Source: a virus
IMG/VR virus record: IMGVR_UViG_3300043436_002220
Span: 1-32,614 of that record
Direction: 5' to 3' (one strand)
DNA length: 32,614 bases
The translations under genes were made by a program, and so were the position numbers. Below are positions 205-18,645 of the stretch, piece after piece; position 1 is the first letter of the stretch, and each line of letters begins with the position of its first letter. Under the pieces are notes generated by a model. That model searched no databases, was not told the origin of the DNA, and saw only the letters and a program-made list of their open reading frames with translations.

Positions 205-710
205 ACTATCCATCCGAATGGTTTATATCCTGTATGGTCCTTTCTCACAGCCTCATGATCACATGGGCTCTGAACATACTCAGGGAACAGCACGCCAGCA
301 TCATCTTTAAGGTATCCAATCAACCTCTCCTTATAAAAATATGCATCCTTGCGCAGCTGGTCACGCATCACCCGGCTTTGGCTGTCATCGTTTGCTGTCA
401 TGGTATCATCACTTTGCCTGCCAACTGACTTGTTAGTGATTTTTTCATTCAGCAATGTAGCACTCCTGTAGTCAACAAACGCCACCAAGCAAGGAATCAC
501 ATAGTCATTCATTAATGTCACATAGTCCTGATTGCTCCAATCATTGGTTTCAACCCTCACAAGCAATGCCTTGTATAGCGGTGTTCCCAATGCAGGCTGG
601 ATGTGCATATCCTGCGACCGCTTAATAACAACAGTGAGCAGCTTTGTATCTGTATTGGGATGAATCAATCCCAGCTTTCGTATATTTTCTGCGCTAATTA
701 GGTAGTTCAT
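201..710 (-). CDS. Head-tail connector protein (DUF6712-like)
   Basis: A 169-residue protein starting MNYLISAENIRKLGLIHPN. The opening, with a helix followed by a 'TKLLTVVIKRSQDMHIQPALGTPLYKAL' type region (only part shown elsewhere), fits the DUF6712 group of small phage proteins of Bacteroidota, generally taken as gp6-like head-tail connectors. The gene starts with ATGA overlap at the portal stop, which agrees with a connector placed under the portal. Mostly helical, with no signal peptide or membrane segment. Family assignment is from memory of the pattern; role is inferred from neighbours. Confidence 0.6.
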   Translation of the reverse strand: MNYLISAENIRKLGLIHPNTDTKLLTVVIKRSQDMHIQPALGTPLYKALLVRVETNDWSNQDYVTLMNDYVIPCLVAFVDYRSATLLNEKITNKSVGRQSDDTMTANDDSQSRVMRDQLRKDAYFYKERLIGYLKDDAGVLFPEYVQSPCDHEAVRKDHTGYKPFGWIV

Positions 711-2716
711 GGCTTACGTTTTACTAAGTTTTGCATCCATATGTGCCGGCACCACGGTGTTGTTTTGCCTGTTTCAGGGTTGGTATAGTACCCACCTCTG
801 TACCTCCATACATCTCTACCATCCTGTGCGCTGATGATTCCAAGCTCTTCCCTTGTGTAAAGCCTATCCAATCGCAACAATGCCAGGCAAAAGTTTCTGC
901 TTTTGGTTTTTACCGGAGGTACATCCTTGCGAGTCTCATATGTGTAGCGTATCTCATACGGTGCTTGCTCAGCTGTTGGTATCCTATTCACTATCTCGCC
1001 ACCGGTTGATGTAACAGAACCACCTGTGCGTACACCATCAGCATCAAGTGATGGCTTTTCGTACAGGCCCAAGATCACCAATTTATCAATGATCTGAACA
1101 ATCACCTGCAATGGCTCACCCAATGCCAGGGCAATTGACCCTGCCTCTTCATCATCCTCCTGTAATAATGTTAACACAGCCTTTTCCTGATCAGTGAGCT
1201 GGACCAATATCTGACCTATCTCATCAAACAGCTGTGCCTCCCGACTGAACACCTCATCTGCAGGAGTATCCCATTCAATTGGCACGCTCTTTATGATCTC
1301 AAACTGCTCACGTGGTGCACCATGTTGCTCAAAAAGTTCAATGCTTTGATCACTGAACATCTGCTTGTGGTTGCAGAATGACATATCACCGGACTGCAAT
1401 CCCACAATCTCACGGGCCTGCGCCTCTGCAATGGTTGGAAACGATGCCAATAATACCTGTAGTGCAGCCTCAGGTGTTAACACTCCCTCCTTAATGGCTG
1501 CCACCACATCAATAATTGATGCAATCTGTGCACCATTCAATGCTGTTTTAGCCACATCAATCTCACCAGCTGCCAATGGATCTGCCTCCACAGCTGCAGC
1601 AGGTGTATCCGCTGCCGTATCTCTCATCACTCCCAATGGAGATACATCCTGCAGCTTAACTACAGCTGTGCTGCCACTCAATGTACACATATAATTTAAA
1701 AGCCATTCAATCTGCTTCTGCCTAGATGACACATATGTTACTTTGAAAATCTCAAATAAATCACCGGACTCCGCTGCATTAAATGAGCCTTGCTGAATGA
1801 TTCCAAACAATGTTGGTGCTGTGATGCTATGAGCCACAAGGATGTTTTGCTGGACCGCTTTCTCAGTCATCTCATACCTCTTATCAAGGTCATTGCCCGA
1901 CAGCTGCATGATGCTTGGCGCATCGTCCTTGGTTTGGCTGAATGTGATGATAATTTCACCAGCTGATTCCACGGATTGTACAGGTCCTTTAATTTGTTCA
2001 CGGATCTTGCGCTCCTCTTCTGCTGTCTCCGGGAATCCTCCAGGCAGATTGATTAGTGTTCCTGCCTTGAATCCATTAGCAATCTCAAACATGTGGAATT
2101 TTGATATGTCGCAATCGGTCTGTATTGCTGTAATTCCACCCACATATGGAGGCTTTGGATAAATTCCTTTCTCACCTTTTGCCTGCTTAGCTGGCTCCTT
2201 GTAATATATGAAGAAAGACCCACCCGGATTATCTTCATCCAGCGCAGGATAGGTGCGAAAATTTGTATCCTCAGCACTCTGCCTGCGAGCATTCCAATCA
2301 TCTGATACAAACAATGTGCGCTCATCCTCAGAAAGCCTACAGGCATCCACATCCAAATGCTCCCATGCCACTACTCTTGTGCCCTCTCTGTTCCATGTGC
2401 CTTTTACACACATAGCACCAAACACCTCAAAGTCAAAGGTCATGCGCTGCACCACCTCATTCATATCAAAGTCACGGTATTCATTGTTGATGAAAGCCTC
2501 AGCATTGCCTGAAACAGTCTCAATGCCACCACCTGAAATATAATAGGTTTTATTTTTTATAATTCCTTGGTGCCAAGCAGAACCATGCAGGAGATCAATC
2601 AAGAAAAAAGGATAGTCATTTTTTTTACCCCATTTTATAAAGCCCTGACCTTTATCCAACTCCTCCGTGGGCACGGTGAATGACTTTGAGAATTGGACAT
2701 TTAACACTTTACTCAT
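707..2716 (-). CDS. Portal protein with a C-terminal extension
   Basis: About 669 residues from the ATG at 2716 (a TTG two codons upstream is less likely; the ATG overlaps the previous stop by 8 bp as ATGAGTAA). The first ~370 residues look like a phage portal: an early 'KWGKKNDYPFFLIDLLHGS' segment, a long mixed alpha/beta clip and wing, and a helix-rich stem region around 'HSITAPTLFGI'. The remaining ~300 residues are unusual: an Ala-rich linker, a segment around 'LTDQEKAVLTLL' that resembles a winged helix, and a Cys/His end (SRNFC, YTREEL, GGYYTNP, CRHIW) similar to the C-terminal part of MuF-like head morphogenesis proteins. It forms the dodecameric DNA gate at the capsid vertex. Position between tail/neck genes and connector supports this. 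Confidence 0.75.
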   Translation of the reverse strand: MSKVLNVQFSKSFTVPTEELDKGQGFIKWGKKNDYPFFLIDLLHGSAWHQGIIKNKTYYISGGGIETVSGNAEAFINNEYRDFDMNEVVQRMTFDFEVFGAMCVKGTWNREGTRVVAWEHLDVDACRLSEDERTLFVSDDWNARRQSAEDTNFRTYPALDEDNPGGSFFIYYKEPAKQAKGEKGIYPKPPYVGGITAIQTDCDISKFHMFEIANGFKAGTLINLPGGFPETAEEERKIREQIKGPVQSVESAGEIIITFSQTKDDAPSIMQLSGNDLDKRYEMTEKAVQQNILVAHSITAPTLFGIIQQGSFNAAESGDLFEIFKVTYVSSRQKQIEWLLNYMCTLSGSTAVVKLQDVSPLGVMRDTAADTPAAAVEADPLAAGEIDVAKTALNGAQIASIIDVVAAIKEGVLTPEAALQVLLASFPTIAEAQAREIVGLQSGDMSFCNHKQMFSDQSIELFEQHGAPREQFEIIKSVPIEWDTPADEVFSREAQLFDEIGQILVQLTDQEKAVLTLLQEDDEEAGSIALALGEPLQVIVQIIDKLVILGLYEKPSLDADGVRTGGSVTSTGGEIVNRIPTAEQAPYEIRYTYETRKDVPPVKTKSRNFCLALLRLDRLYTREELGIISAQDGRDVWRYRGGYYTNPETGKTTPWCRHIWMQNLVKRKP

Positions 2717-3077
2717 AGACAAAATTTGTCACGTTATAATCATAATAATTGGATGGACTATCCACCTCAAATACATGGGCACGGCCCTCCTCTACTATTC
2801 CATCACTCAATGCCGGATCTAAATTGAAAGAGCTGGCCTGTTGGTATATTTTATATGTGTAGAAACCGGCATAAGGAAATGTTACATCCACCCCATCAAT
2901 CAAAACAAACTCATCATAACGTGGAATGCCTGTGCTGATGTTGGTTAGGATGCAGTACAAAGCCTCCTGCGTTTGCTCCTCAATGAATTCAAAGAGGTAA
3001 TACGGGGCTGATATCGTTGTCAGTTCCGATACGGTCACTATCAACGTGCTCTGCTGGTTTCTTTCTATCCTTAGCAT
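2709..3077 (-). CDS. Virion-associated beta-rich protein, 122 aa
   Basis: A 122-residue protein beginning MLRIERNQQSTLIVTVSEL, rich in alternating hydrophobic residues and Tyr/Phe, as in an Ig-like or C2-like beta sandwich. Short proteins opening like this occur beside capsid and portal genes in Bacteroidota phages (recalled pattern). Its start lies inside the preceding gene (89 bp overlap, different frame) and its stop overlaps the portal start. A neck or head-decoration role is plausible from position only. Confidence 0.55.
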   Translation of the reverse strand: MLRIERNQQSTLIVTVSELTTISAPYYLFEFIEEQTQEALYCILTNISTGIPRYDEFVLIDGVDVTFPYAGFYTYKIYQQASSFNLDPALSDGIVEEGRAHVFEVDSPSNYYDYNVTNFVYE

Positions 3078-3865: not shown

Positions 3866-4837
3866 TTAGTTAGGAGAGCCTGTACCATTCCACACCCCGA
3901 TTTCATCAAGGAAAGGAACCTGAACACCAGCACGGAATTTAGAACGGATGTAGATCACATCATCATCAAATGAATACCACAAATCGTAGCTTTCAAAGTC
4001 AGAAGATAAGTCAGTTCCAAAGAAGAAGTGAGATGAACGTCCTGTGTAGATGTTATCCAAACCATTCAATCCGTTCACTTTTACCACTCGCATGTTAGTA
4101 CCTGGTACCAAACACTCATTCAAGTTAGCAATTGTCTCAGGGCTGTAATGGTAGAAATTCTGATCAACCAAATTTTTCAACAAGTAGTTGAAGTTCTCAC
4201 GGCCTGTGAAACAAATCAAATCAGCTTGCTCAGCAACTTGTGCAGGTGTGTTGATGAAACACTCATAAAACACATCGAATGCATTGGTAGAATCAATTGT
4301 TGCAGTAGATGAGGTATTCAAATCCACAGCACCGTTTGCTGTTGTAAGGAATTGACGGAATCCGTTCATCCATTGTAGGTTGCCTGAACCTGTTGCAACA
4401 TTACCTTTCCAAATAAGGTTATCCAATTCACGTGCATGTAACTTCAATAAATAATCAGTAAGCTGTGCCTCGAATGGTAACTCCTTATCCTCAGCCATTG
4501 CACCTGGACGAAGAGCCAACTGTGTCCAAAGACCAGCAAGGTCCTTCTGACAAAATCTTTTCATGTAACCAATAGCATTCACGCTCAATTGACGATCAGA
4601 AAAAACTGTATCACCCTCAGGAGTCATTGAACAGTTAGCCTCTTGGTACACGATGGAATCATCTAGTAACTTAAGGTCCTCAGTTCCTTTGATACCCTCC
4701 TGAATAGTGATATACTGTAATGTTTGTGCCTCAGTTACTGAACGCACGATAAGGTCCTCACGTGAATCATCCACGTATGGGCTCAAGTCTTGAACATCGT
4801 AGTCAAACTTGGATTTGATAAACTTTTTTAAACTCAT
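3866..4837 (-). CDS. Major capsid protein (HK97 fold expected)
   Basis: A 323-residue protein (MSLKKFIKSKFDYDVQDLSPYVDDSR..). Its place directly after the protease and scaffold genes, its length, and its layout agree with an HK97-type capsid subunit: a charged N-terminal arm, a middle part with 'PFEAQLTDYLLKLHARELDNLIWKG' typical of the spine helix, and a C-terminal beta part ending 'FRAGVQVPFLDEIGVWNG'. It overlaps the scaffold stop by 4 bp. It shows no obvious N-terminal delta domain, in line with a separate scaffold protein. Confidence 0.85.
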   Translation of the reverse strand: MSLKKFIKSKFDYDVQDLSPYVDDSREDLIVRSVTEAQTLQYITIQEGIKGTEDLKLLDDSIVYQEANCSMTPEGDTVFSDRQLSVNAIGYMKRFCQKDLAGLWTQLALRPGAMAEDKELPFEAQLTDYLLKLHARELDNLIWKGNVATGSGNLQWMNGFRQFLTTANGAVDLNTSSTATIDSTNAFDVFYECFINTPAQVAEQADLICFTGRENFNYLLKNLVDQNFYHYSPETIANLNECLVPGTNMRVVKVNGLNGLDNIYTGRSSHFFFGTDLSSDFESYDLWYSFDDDVIYIRSKFRAGVQVPFLDEIGVWNGTGSPN

Positions 4838-5412
4838 TTTTTCATATTATTAAGTAGAAACATTTGCCGGCTGGTCATTCCTGCATTACTTTTCTTGGCA
4901 AATTTCTCTGCCTCTTTGACCTCATTTGATGGTGCGTTTTTGTAGGCTGCAAATTCAGCTTTCAACTCAGCAAGTTCAGCACTAAGCTCATCATTTTGCT
5001 TGGCGATTGCTTCAACAATACCGGACATGCTTTTAAAAGCCTTGCCAAAAGTTGAAACCTCACCCTCTACAATTGATTTCACTTGTGCCTCAGACATTGC
5101 ATCCTCGGCTGGTGTGCCTCCGCTGCCCTCACGCTCATCAATTAATTCTGCGATGATGCCCTCTGCATCAACCACAATGGAAAGACCTGCCATGTCACCA
5201 CCTAGGCGATGTGTGCCCTCAGGTGCAGGGATCTCTTCGCCTTCAGCAACAACAAATACAGGTATTCCCGGGGTCAAATCTGTACCCTCCCAACGGATTT
5301 CTGTACCGTCCTCAAGAACAGCCTCACCAAACTTGGCAGCAACTTTGCGCCCGGCAAGGATAGTCTTGAATTCAGCCAGGGAATCCATTACCTTTTTAAA
5401 ATTGTCGTTCAT
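4834..5412 (-). CDS. Capsid scaffold protein
   Basis: A 192-residue acidic protein located between the prohead protease and the capsid gene. The N-terminal half is beta-rich and Gly/Glu-rich; residues about 110-170 form a long charged helix or coiled coil ('IVEAIAKQNDELSAELAELKAEF'), and the end (MTSRQMFLLNNMKK) is a short basic helix that could bind the capsid shell, as scaffold C-termini do. Its leader carries a degenerate copy of the AT-rich element seen before two other late genes. The function follows from position and coiled-coil pattern. Confidence 0.7.
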   Translation of the reverse strand: MNDNFKKVMDSLAEFKTILAGRKVAAKFGEAVLEDGTEIRWEGTDLTPGIPVFVVAEGEEIPAPEGTHRLGGDMAGLSIVVDAEGIIAELIDEREGSGGTPAEDAMSEAQVKSIVEGEVSTFGKAFKSMSGIVEAIAKQNDELSAELAELKAEFAAYKNAPSNEVKEAEKFAKKSNAGMTSRQMFLLNNMKK

Positions 5413-5449: not shown

Positions 5450-6352
5450 CTAAAATTTCACGGCATCAACCTCAGTGAATTCCTTGATCAGCGCAATTTG
5501 CTCTGCATTGTTGTCATAATGCCGTTCAATTCTCAGCCTTTTTAGTGTTTGCCACTTATCTCTGCCACCTGTGAAATACACATTTTCCCTACGTATACCG
5601 AGCTTTTGAGCCATCTCATATACTGATGCACCATTGCTCTGCTGCCGTGCTGTCACAATGTACACCTCATCCCCTATGGTGATGTGACGCTTAGCCAATT
5701 GCTGCCCTTGTGATGTGGTCAATGTCTCATCAAAATCAAAGGATACCCGCATCTTAGCAAATGCTTGGCGTAATCCATCCAACTCCTCAGCTATCTGCTG
5801 CCACATGTTTTCTTCCATGCTTGCACCTTGCTCAGTCAACATAAACAATCCCTCAATGCTGAATCCCATCCACTCGCCTGCCTTGGCCTTGGCAAAAATC
5901 TCATCACTCACCTTGTATCCAACAATCCAAGATCCATCATTGACATCCTTGAATCGCTCCGGTGCTGTCAGTCCTTTGCTCTCATCCACTTGGTAGCTTA
6001 AAATCATGGCAACATCATCCACAACATCCGCGCTATTGTGCTCAATGTTGACATTGTTGAAATACCCCTTGCGGCTATAGTCATACACAATGTCCTTAAT
6101 TGCTTGCTTTGTAAACACCACATAGTATTCCTCATTGCTTATTGAATCATATCGGTAAATTGGTGTATCCGCTGAGATTGCCACCCCAATAATCACGTTC
6201 TCCTCATCATTAAATTGGAACCGCTGAGTCTTGCTAAACATCTCAAAGTTCACCTCATGCGCTGGACTGCTCACAAGGCTGTTGAATGTCACCTCTGTGT
6301 CCTGATCATTGAGATCAATCTTTATCTCGTATACCGGTAGATCTTTCTTCAT
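5450..6352 (-). CDS. Prohead protease (XkdF/S78-like) fused to a HAD-type phosphatase domain
   Basis: A 300-residue protein with two parts. Residues 1-175 resemble XkdF-like phage prohead serine proteases: 'VNIEHN' supplies His105 and 'WMGFSIEG' supplies Ser165, the likely catalytic pair, with 'GSWIVGYKVSD' in between. After a linker (residues 176-200) comes a compact HAD-superfamily domain: FDFDETLT (Asp206, Asp208, Thr210; motif I), VTAR (Thr234; motif II), a Lys-containing GRDKWQTLK (Lys266/Lys271; motif III) and HYDNN (Asp280; motif IV). The key HAD residues are all present, so phosphatase activity is possible. The protease would cleave scaffold and the capsid during maturation; the job of the phosphatase part is unknown. 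It is first in late block 2, with the shared 21-bp element 4 bp upstream of the ATG. Confidence 0.8.
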   Translation of the reverse strand: MKKDLPVYEIKIDLNDQDTEVTFNSLVSSPAHEVNFEMFSKTQRFQFNDEENVIIGVAISADTPIYRYDSISNEEYYVVFTKQAIKDIVYDYSRKGYFNNVNIEHNSADVVDDVAMILSYQVDESKGLTAPERFKDVNDGSWIVGYKVSDEIFAKAKAGEWMGFSIEGLFMLTEQGASMEENMWQQIAEELDGLRQAFAKMRVSFDFDETLTTSQGQQLAKRHITIGDEVYIVTARQQSNGASVYEMAQKLGIRRENVYFTGGRDKWQTLKRLRIERHYDNNAEQIALIKEFTEVDAVKF

Positions 6353-6356
6353 ACCA

Positions 6357-6377
6357 AATTATGTACTTTTGTTCTAT
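6357..6377. promoter_or_regulatory. Shared 21-bp AT-rich element, copy 1 (bidirectional candidate promoter)
   Basis: Plus-strand TATGTACTTTTGTTCTAT with flanking AAT matches 18445-18465 at 20 of 21 bases. It lies between the divergent starts of the protease (minus, 6352) and the Stealth-like gene (plus). On the plus strand it contains TACTTTTG, a perfect Bacteroidota -7 box (TAnnTTTG); on the minus strand it reads AGAACAAAAGTACATAATT, immediately before the protease ATG. Direction and function are not settled by sequence. Confidence 0.5.
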
Positions 6378-7017
6378 GGTATTTGTATATCCATACATCC
6401 GGCACCTCAATGATTGGGATATTCTGCGCTCAATTGAATGGCTGATGGATGCTTTTCCCCAGGCAAACGTGTTTACCATTGGTGATGCCCTACCAAACAG
6501 GGAAAATATACCCCATAAAAAAAGATATCATGAACGTGGTTGTGATGTGACTGACAAAATTCTGACCTTTGCCAGGGAGATTGGAGGGGATGCCATCTAC
6601 ATGAATGATGATTTTTTCATTAATGCAAATTTTGACCCATACACCAACTTGCGCAATGGCATGCTCAAGATTAATCCGGAACATTCACCGGTATATCAGC
6701 AGGCTTGCAAGCATACACTTGAATTCCTTAATCATTACCAATACACCACCTTCAACTTTGAATGCCATCAACCAATGATGTTCAATAGTGCCAAGCTGAT
6801 TGAGCTGTTTGATGAAATCACATGGCAGCAGCACAACCATTTTATCAAATCCCTATATCTTAACGTGCATACCTTCATGTCAATGGATGCTGAGAATCTC
6901 AAGATTGGTAGGCCTGACTTAATCAAAGCCAATCAACTGCTTGACAAATACGGATGCTTTTCAATATCCGATGATTTCAAGCAGCACAATGGACCCGATT
7001 TTCTTAATAGGTGCTGA
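6361..7017 (+). CDS. Stealth-like sugar-phosphotransferase / glycosyltransferase
   Basis: The only convincing plus-strand gene. From 6361 it encodes 218 residues; the in-frame ATG at 6376 (MVFVYPYIRHLND) is the more likely start because the candidate -7 box overlaps the first codons. It shows 'VYPYIRHLNDWDILRSIEWL', 'NVFTIGDALP', 'KKRYHERG' and the 'AIYMNDDFFI' signature (Asn82-Asp83-Asp84), the pattern of Stealth-type hexose-1-phosphate transferases and related phage glycosyltransferases. Such enzymes transfer sugar phosphates to glycans. Its 3' end overlaps the tape measure gene tail to tail by 14 bp, and its 5' end diverges from the protease. Probably an inserted accessory gene. Confidence 0.65.
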   Translation: MYFCSMVFVYPYIRHLNDWDILRSIEWLMDAFPQANVFTIGDALPNRENIPHKKRYHERGCDVTDKILTFAREIGGDAIYMNDDFFINANFDPYTNLRNGMLKINPEHSPVYQQACKHTLEFLNHYQYTTFNFECHQPMMFNSAKLIELFDEITWQQHNHFIKSLYLNVHTFMSMDAENLKIGRPDLIKANQLLDKYGCFSISDDFKQHNGPDFLNRC

Positions 7018-16238: not shown

Positions 16239-16756
16239 CCAAAGAAGTTCAGGAATTCATCACCGGGGAACCGCTCCTTGAATAGTGCCTCCCTCTTTTC
16301 ATTGGGATTAATGACCACACCGCGCTCATCCTTTTGGCAGTATTCCATCCCCTCCTCCACATAGCAGATGGCTAATGCTTTATGTGGCTCCTCAGGCACC
16401 CTCTCAATCAGCTTCATATCAATCATCTGCCCTGTTGATATCTTGCTGAAATCCTTCTCATAAACATATGCCTGCCCATCAATCACTATCCTTCCGGATG
16501 GCTCCTCCATCTGATGATCACTGATCATGTTCAGCAATCGGTAGCTTAGCCTCACCACATCATCAACCGCAGCTCTCTTAATCTCATTTACCTTCAATCC
16601 GGTGAACACACTCACCACCTGAACGTGGAAGTCAAGCATGCCACTAAGATTGCTCTGTGCCTCCTTCCACAGCGGTGCCATATGCAGCCACTTTGTGACC
16701 ATAATAGGACTGCACTCCCTGATATGCCTTGGATATTTTACCTCAATCACACTCAT
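16043..16756 (-). CDS. Tail assembly chaperone, zero-frame product (gpG-like)
   Basis: A 237-residue zero-frame protein (MSVIEVKYPRHIRECSPIMV). Its body carries 'YVYEKDFSKISTGQMIDMK', a phrase I associate with Bacteroidota phage tail chaperones. Codons 170-176 read FFGFF across nine T. The 61 residues after the slip site (HSSESRRNAIL..) look like a shadow reading and may be just a tail. Expected role: solubilise and load the tape measure protein during tail building. It overlaps the large terminase stop by 4 bp. Unusually, it lies far upstream of the tape measure gene, with the baseplate and fibre genes in between. Confidence 0.65.
   Translation of the reverse strand: MSVIEVKYPRHIRECSPIMVTKWLHMAPLWKEAQSNLSGMLDFHVQVVSVFTGLKVNEIKRAAVDDVVRLSYRLLNMISDHQMEEPSGRIVIDGQAYVYEKDFSKISTGQMIDMKLIERVPEEPHKALAICYVEEGMEYCQKDERGVVINPNEKREALFKERFPGDEFLNFFGFFLHSSESRRNAILALQVVRMEAQRMKIMREVQKTASGLHGQESSSGWLRSLVGRLTKSQGSRT
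16230..16238 (-). other. Slippery T9 run, candidate -1 ribosomal frameshift site
   Basis: On the coding strand the sequence is GG followed by nine T and GCA. In the zero frame codons are GGT TTT TTT TTG; slipping back one base gives TTT TTT TTT GCA. Both tRNAs can re-pair fully on T, an ideal slip sequence. Confidence 0.65.
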
Positions 16757-17955
16757 ACTCTCATCACTTTATATTGCCCTCGTTTACTGTATGCTTTCCT
16801 GCAATGCCATGCCAATGCCAGGGATATCACCCCATCATCATGCAACCCATCCGGTGCTGCATATTTCACTGACCTTGTGCTTGGATTGTAAATGTACGTA
16901 AAAGCCTCCAATTCATCAAGCAGCCACCTCTCATCGTGCACCATGATGGCTGCCTGTTCAAAGGCCACAGCCAAATCCTCAATCAATACCGGCTTGGACT
17001 TGGATGAGGTGACCCATGGCTCCACATTGTTCCGGCACCTTTTGGCCAGCATCTCATAGAACACATCACCCTGGTTATTGACCTCCACCAATGTGAGGGC
17101 ATTGTGCTGCTTAATGCGTGCCTCCACTTGGTCAATGATCTGACTCCACTCCATATGCCTCCACCTGTACACAGCCACCATGTGCCCATCGCTGTTGATC
17201 ACGGATAGCACGGTGTAGTCATCAGCCCTGCCGATATCAAGCCCGGCATATGCCTTACCTGTTGGCTGTCCGGTACCTATACATGCCTGTATGTTGCGGA
17301 ACAGCCCGGATGCATTGTCCACAAACTCAGCCATGTACTCCTGCCGAAAGATATGGTCAGGCAGTGACCGCTTGCGCTCATCCAAATCCTGTTGGTCAAT
17401 CAGCGGATTGTCGTAGCTGCTGAACTGAAAGTATTTATACCTCTCATCATAGTTGTGCTGTAATGCCAACCTGTGGAAGTGATTCCTTCCCTTGGGCGTT
17501 GAAATGAATAGAACCTTTTTTCCCTTGACCAACACGGTTGCACTCAGCACCTCATCCCATAGCTCTGCCCTGGTGAATGCCATCTCATCAATGATCAGGT
17601 AATCGAAGGTGTTACCTCGGATGTTATCGGGTTTCTCACCTGAATAGAATGTGATGGTGCTGCCAAATCCCTTGATCCATAAATCGGACCTGTGGAATTC
17701 AAACAGGCCGGATGCCCTTGTGACTCGCTCCATCTCATCAAACACCTTCTTGCTCTGTTTATACACCGGTGTGACCCATGCGATATTGCAGCCCTTATCA
17801 TTGATTGCCCACCACAGCATTTGATTAATCCCCAGCAAGGTCTTGCCAAACTGCCTGCCGATGTTCAGCACGTAATACTTATATGGTCCATGATTGATTG
17901 AATCATGAATCAGCCTTTGATTGGCATGGGGCTTATATCCTTTGACTGTGCTCAT
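16753..17955 (-). CDS. terL: Terminase large subunit
   Basis: A 400-residue DNA packaging motor. The ATPase half has a Walker A-type GRQFGKT (residues 33-39), Walker B YLIIDEMA (Asp123-Glu124) and the coupling motif 'LFISTPKG' (around 149-156). The nuclease half has GLDIGRADDYTVL (Asp240, Asp245/246) and a final HDDGVISLALAW with a metal-binding Asp pair, as in RNase H-fold terminase nucleases. Length is a little short for the family but complete. The start at 17955 follows directly on a minus-strand terminator hairpin and a candidate promoter, so its expression may be controlled separately from the small subunit. Confidence 0.93.
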   Translation of the reverse strand: MSTVKGYKPHANQRLIHDSINHGPYKYYVLNIGRQFGKTLLGINQMLWWAINDKGCNIAWVTPVYKQSKKVFDEMERVTRASGLFEFHRSDLWIKGFGSTITFYSGEKPDNIRGNTFDYLIIDEMAFTRAELWDEVLSATVLVKGKKVLFISTPKGRNHFHRLALQHNYDERYKYFQFSSYDNPLIDQQDLDERKRSLPDHIFRQEYMAEFVDNASGLFRNIQACIGTGQPTGKAYAGLDIGRADDYTVLSVINSDGHMVAVYRWRHMEWSQIIDQVEARIKQHNALTLVEVNNQGDVFYEMLAKRCRNNVEPWVTSSKSKPVLIEDLAVAFEQAAIMVHDERWLLDELEAFTYIYNPSTRSVKYAAPDGLHDDGVISLALAWHCRKAYSKRGQYKVMRV

Positions 17956-18495: not shown

Positions 18496-18645
18496 TTACT
18501 TCTTATTCTTACTCTGTATATATTGAGCAGAACATACTGCAACCCTCTGATTGGCTGGATATTCCTCATTCATCTTAGGATCACTTAGGCAGCGTTTCAT
18601 GAAATCAGCCTCTTTCTCATTGGGTTTTGGTTTAGGTATTGGCAT
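18496..18645 (-). CDS. Small Cys-containing phage protein, 49 aa
   Basis: Starts at the ATG at 18645 (MPIPKPKPNEKEADFMKRCL), overlapping the GT2 stop by 14 bp; a longer frame upstream only shadows GT2. The pattern 'P(I/x)PKPKxxEKExDFMxRCxxDxxMxxEYPxxQRxAVCxxQ' is a known small phage module, often seen as a stand-alone protein or at the front of prohead protease/portal-associated proteins. The two Cys may bind metal. It is the last gene before the late block; function unknown. Confidence 0.7.
   Translation of the reverse strand: MPIPKPKPNEKEADFMKRCLSDPKMNEEYPANQRVAVCSAQYIQSKNKK

Follow-up and report, generated by a model that had tools for sequence, protein, structure and literature searches.

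A predicted phosphatase of the HAD superfamily fused to the XkdF-type prohead protease in a family of phages

Background

Enzyme domains carried on phage head proteins are a known theme. In the polymorphic polyvalent and MuF proteins of phages, the MuF or portal protein carries exchangeable enzyme domains (Iyer et al. 2017, PMC5512222; MuF toxins, PMC5576092). These include PBECR RNase, 2H phosphoesterase, InPase and metallopeptidase domains, and they are believed to be taken into the virion and on into the new host (PMC5512222; PMC5576092). The text of PMC5512222 names prohead protease in its reference list only, and has no whole-word match for phosphatase.

The window analyzed here is the whole stretch of 32,614 nucleotides of the IMG/VR virus record IMGVR_UViG_3300043436_002220, whose host is probably a member of the Bacteroidota, judging from relatives among Nonlabens and Flavobacterium phages. 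It encodes a protein that, like the polyvalent proteins, combines several enzymatic domains (a protease and a HAD) and has portal and scaffold genes as neighbors. Unlike in the polyvalent and MuF proteins, the carrier is an XkdF prohead protease and the cargo is a HAD. The XkdF prohead protease is new as a carrier, and a literature search of incomplete coverage found no paper on a prohead protease-HAD fusion.

Two described fusions involve the same protease. Gene 1 of Nonlabens phage P12024L, in which XkdF is fused to a scaffold, has the same protease domain with the invariant His and Ser and is followed by scaffold/capsid genes, but the window protein has the HAD where P12024L runs into the scaffold, and its putative scaffold is a separate gene. 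The DNA methyltransferase-XkdF fusions (phrog_1530; Rhizobium phage RHph_Y1_11), known from GenBank annotation, also place an enzyme on the XkdF protease; their methyltransferase is annotated as N-terminal, whereas the phosphatase domain of the window protein is C-terminal.

Results and discussion

The features of the window that are relevant here are listed in Table 1.

Table 1. Head, packaging and associated features of the window
Feature	Position	Strand	Basis
XkdF protease-HAD fusion ORF, 300 aa	5450..6352	-	
XkdF-type (S78_2) prohead protease domain, residues 1-195, with His105 and Ser165	5768..6352	-	PF14550 score; invariant His and GFS[IV][ED]G in relatives
Cap-less minimal HAD domain, residues 199-300, with D206, D208, T210, T234, R236, K266, D280 and N282	5453..5758	-	
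Putative scaffold gene adjoining the protease	4834..5412	-	homologue of the C-terminal half of the fused P12024L protease-scaffold
Probable major capsid protein, phrog_11320 (no named function)	3866..4837	-	gene order after the protease, as in P12024L
Portal protein with long C-terminal extension	707..2722	-	phrog_11226, TIGR01540
Terminase large subunit	16753..17955	-	PF03237, 70.7 bits
Small RCM-module ORF upstream of the small terminase gene (TerS)	18496..18645	-	

The fusion is a single ORF of 300 residues (5453-6352, or 5450-6352 including the stop codon). PF14550 (XkdF / Peptidase_S78_2) covers residues 48-168 with 30.5 bits, above the curated cut-off of 24, and both His105, in an EHN motif, and Ser165, in GFSIEG, are invariant among relatives, which bears out the original prediction of an XkdF-like protease with this His/Ser pair. 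The gene lies just before the scaffold and capsid genes, as in the XkdF family, the capsid being called from gene order. The product of the adjoining gene matches P12024L in a pairwise BLASTP comparison (26% over 161 aa, E 4e-07), and from its position and helical make-up we infer a scaffold role.

The C-terminal part contains FDFDETLT at residues 205-212 (D206, D208, T210), followed by T234 in IVTAR, K266, and D280 in HYDNN. All catalytic motifs of a HAD that had been read from the sequence are thus present, except that K271, originally offered beside K266 as the lysine, is no motif residue; K266 is the invariant one. Met201 was considered as a separate internal start for the HAD and rejected, since other groups have K or V there. 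Recent foreign import was likewise rejected on base composition, as GC does not differ between the protease (0.439) and the HAD (0.448). No cleavage site was identified between the two domains.

The fusion does not arise from a frameshift joining two genes, an artefact that had been named as a possible flaw. A local frameshift is ruled out by intact XkdF-HAD fusions at 60-99% identity in 20 or more IMG/VR contigs, which come from many different samples. With a profile trained solely on HADs that are not part of a protease, the window protein reaches 143.7 bits (E 8e-43); among 10,000 shuffled versions of the tail the highest score is 12.5 bits, so the match is far above chance. A structure search also returned UniProt A0A6J5N6Z6 from an uncultured Caudovirales phage, which has 301 residues and is 61% identical over the whole fusion; it is named only as XkdF, without the HAD. 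The search for further protease-HAD fusions in phages, proposed at the outset, was productive: counting each ORF once, the collection holds 29 XkdF-HAD and 7 XkdF-c-HAD proteins (c being the module described below), along with 124 of XkdF alone, 60 XkdF-c, 36 HADs without XkdF and 5 HAD-c, numbers that are shaped by the queries and in part count ORFs cut off at contig ends, and so are no natural frequencies. Many of the sampled XkdF ORFs, in a sample biased by the queries, have an extra cassette, a scaffold or another domain. The fusion can be called unusual for the HAD as partner, but additions to XkdF are common.

Motifs and modeled topology make the HAD fold clear. In the AlphaFold2 model of the whole protein the HAD part has a pLDDT of about 89-96, and with an overall pTM of 0.53 the model does not fix how the two domains are arranged. 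Modeled by itself, the HAD reaches a pLDDT of 96.6 and a pTM of 0.90, with five strands, alternating helices and no cap domain. This is the five-stranded Rossmannoid core of the HAD superfamily, and VIA, run on the full-length and the HAD-only models, gives full-length matches to several HADs with Z of 9-12.8, in agreement with the fold originally proposed for the C-terminal part. Foldseek with the full-length model gave mixed Rossmann matches and was uninformative, and a profile search of solved structures found no significant relative. A scan of genome contigs with the HAD profile found no cellular relative, which is weak evidence of absence because the contigs were reached through a few short patterns.

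The top match of the HAD model in VIA-align 2 is the T4 Pnkp 3'-phosphatase (Z 12.8, rmsd 1.9 over 99 residues), followed among the HADs by human phosphoserine phosphatase (Z 11.6), AphA (Z 10.9, 25% identity) and a deoxyribonucleotidase (Z 10.5). Like T4 Pnkp, the window HAD has an invariant Arg two residues after the motif II Thr. Unlike T4 Pnkp, it lacks a kinase domain and is shorter (102 versus 142 residues), with 14% identity. The T4 Pnkp 3'-phosphatase family has paired aspartates in motif IV, and these are absent in the window HAD, which has D280-N281-N282. Unrelated universal stress proteins reach Z 11.9, within 1 Z of T4 Pnkp, so that structural rank alone fixes no substrate. The 5'-nucleotidase model PF06189 is matched by 29 of the 36 HAD members (best E 2.9e-6), and the window HAD scores 26.6 bits, below the curated cut-off of 28.2. 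Among the substrates first suggested for the domain (a nucleotide, a sugar or a protein), a nucleotide appears likeliest by resemblance alone, and whether the substrate is of this type is close to an even bet.

The domain is apparently a catalytically intact phosphatase, a prediction from its conserved residues. D206, D208, T210, T234, R236, K266, H278, D280 and N282 are identical in 36 of 36 sequences, down to about 52% identity, so that motifs I-IV of the superfamily (DxDxT, S/T, K, D) are all invariant; in motif IV, position 281 is N in 35 sequences and S in one. The median omega is 0.12 for the HAD and 0.07 for the protease (16 unsaturated pairs), indicating that the tail is maintained by purifying selection. 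It is very unlikely, given this invariance across the 36-member family, that the HAD is a structural or binding domain of the head which keeps the fold without catalysis. The loop-inserted and RCM-fused copies described below also keep the catalytic positions, except for S instead of T in motif II of several. What favors a non-catalytic domain is L218:2968-4104, an independent and divergent XkdF-HAD fusion with DYHQT for DxDxT and ITN for T-A-R, which is perhaps a dead copy.

The HAD is a mobile cassette of the head/packaging gene cluster. It is located at the protease tail in the window, in L014, L017 and their relatives, and also in L023 and L025. In four proteins (L057, L068, L097, L098) a further module of about 102 residues, module c, lies between the protease and the tail HAD, and three of these (L057, L068, L098) are 91-97% identical to partners without module c. 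In five others (L299, L303, L314, L316, L318) the HAD is instead inside a loop in the N-terminal part of the protease. There it is flanked by module c and an RCM-like module (EPKAGES...FVSRC). L289 and L311 lack the loop HAD and are 91% identical outside the insert to L314 and L299, respectively; L299 and L311 thus show a clean presence/absence of 97 residues between otherwise 91% identical proteins. The same loop holds module c in L179, L194 and L208. The protease tree, labeled by presence or absence of the HAD, has at least three separate HAD placements, forced by starred branches, in a tree made by a quick method and with long branches.

Outside the protease, the HAD occurs as free-standing proteins of about 106 aa, with or without module c and a short N-terminal KWRIG-type module, which lie upstream of terminase genes in the loci read in detail. 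It is also joined to a small RCM module (MPIPxPxxxExExxFxxRC...QRxxVC) in an ORF upstream of TerS. In the window this ORF holds RCM alone and overlaps the end of the upstream glycosyltransferase ORF. RCM likewise stands alone upstream of TerS in three other genomes (G002, G004, G006), and in all four the protease ends in the HAD. Where the protease has no tail, in six relatives, the ORF is RCM+c (G011, G014, G015), RCM+c followed by a separate HAD (G012), or RCM+HAD (G009, G022). Cassettes are therefore on the protease or on the TerS-upstream ORF and never on both (4 versus 6 genomes, without exception), a split of 1/210 by simple counting that is no proper probability because the genomes are related; five more HAD-tail genomes, without an RCM match, are left out of this count. 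None of the 38 genomes searched has more than one HAD match. In many tail-less relatives no HAD was detected, and the domain must be dispensable.

This second location raises the possibility that the HAD serves genome packaging by processing nucleotides or DNA ends close to the portal and terminase, and that either the protease fusion or the TerS-side position places it there. The free-standing and RCM-fused copies directly upstream of terminase genes agree with such a role, as does the DNA/RNA 3'-phosphatase as top structural match. However, gene proximity is weak by itself, sister phages manage without any detected HAD, and the ends produced by terminase would not be expected to require dephosphorylation. 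A packaging role is thus considered unlikely.

The HAD is one of several occupants of these sites. In L194 and L199 the C-terminal XkdF slot holds a zeta-toxin-type kinase (PF06414 in L194, 97 bits against a cut-off of 22.3), and both fusions (L194:2569-4428 for the former) also have module c inserted in the protease loop. A kinase domain of this type is also found on a minor head protein of cyanophage PSS2, with 37% identity. L239:2566-3954 and L320 encode an XkdF protease with a C-terminal domain that contains a HEMSH stretch; it is called zincin-like tentatively, since no Pfam model recognizes the L239 domain. L220 carries KTSC and module c. By record annotation, module c is also present on portal, prohead protease and capsid proteins of halo-, Vibrio and cyanophages.

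Two other features of the window deserve mention. The portal protein is extended at its C-terminus by about 330 residues, with a stretch that contains Cys and His (TPWCRHIW) at the end, and this extension is perhaps another fused module. The gene at 6361-7017, a member of phrog_7999, is on the plus strand among minus-strand late genes, between the protease and a tape-measure-like gene, and its DDxF-type stretch (YMNDDFFI) recalls glycosyl- or phosphotransferases.

The fusions might also be products of mosaic recombination between neighboring modules, so that location is meaningless and the HAD is an ordinary cytoplasmic accessory enzyme, such as a nucleotidase, hitch-hiking on the protease gene. 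It changes position freely, it exists as free-standing proteins, tail-less relatives often lack it, and distant homologues in huge phages are separate genes. On the other hand, the HADs found in the phage family of the window all occur either on the protease or at the ORF immediately upstream of TerS, as part of it or next to it, and the partners module c and zeta kinase occur elsewhere on portal, capsid and minor head proteins, a preference for head proteins that random fusion would not produce. A hitch-hiking cytoplasmic enzyme therefore seems rather unlikely. Some HADs, as in L118 and L153, are alone with no recognizable head module, so presence in the head is not universal.

A domain with intact HAD motifs and fold, under purifying selection, mobile and confined to the head/packaging genes of its family is best explained as an accessory phosphatase of the head module. 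Swapping between the protease and other head/packaging genes suggests that its place of action is inside the virus particle or alongside it. In the preferred reading, to which we assign a probability of about 45%, the phosphatase sits on the protease tail, enters the prohead, and acts on phosphomonoesters of nucleotides or nucleic acids. The cassette is attached to the C-terminal end of the XkdF protease and so lies ahead of the scaffold gene. Prohead proteases in general are assembled inside the prohead, and so the fusion would bring the phosphatase into the head; its presence there is about as probable as its absence. Inside the head it would stay fused, or be released by protease cleavage. 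Its substrates would then be phosphomonoesters, on nucleotides or at nucleic-acid ends, and it would work on them while the DNA is being packaged or once it has been ejected together with the DNA. Action after ejection is the more doubtful part. The idea that the tail removes itself at cleavage, part of the original prediction, is conceivable where the HAD is a tail, but is no general requirement, because the HAD is also loop-inserted, free-standing and RCM-linked.

Conclusions

Prohead proteases are normally viewed as disposable assembly tools. It is possible, though rather unlikely, that the XkdF protease is a third polymorphic cargo platform of tailed phages beside MuF and portal, which would take HAD, zeta-type kinase and zincin-like cassettes into the prohead and deliver them with the DNA; the HAD might then serve, just after infection begins and for a few minutes, as a phosphatase that heals ends or acts on signal nucleotides. 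Proteomics and mutants could address the question in the natural presence/absence pairs (L299 versus L311; protease tail versus TerS-side ORF). If the loops and tails of the protease are docking sites, a large uncharted set of phage effectors may be present under the labels 'prohead protease' or 'XkdF' only.
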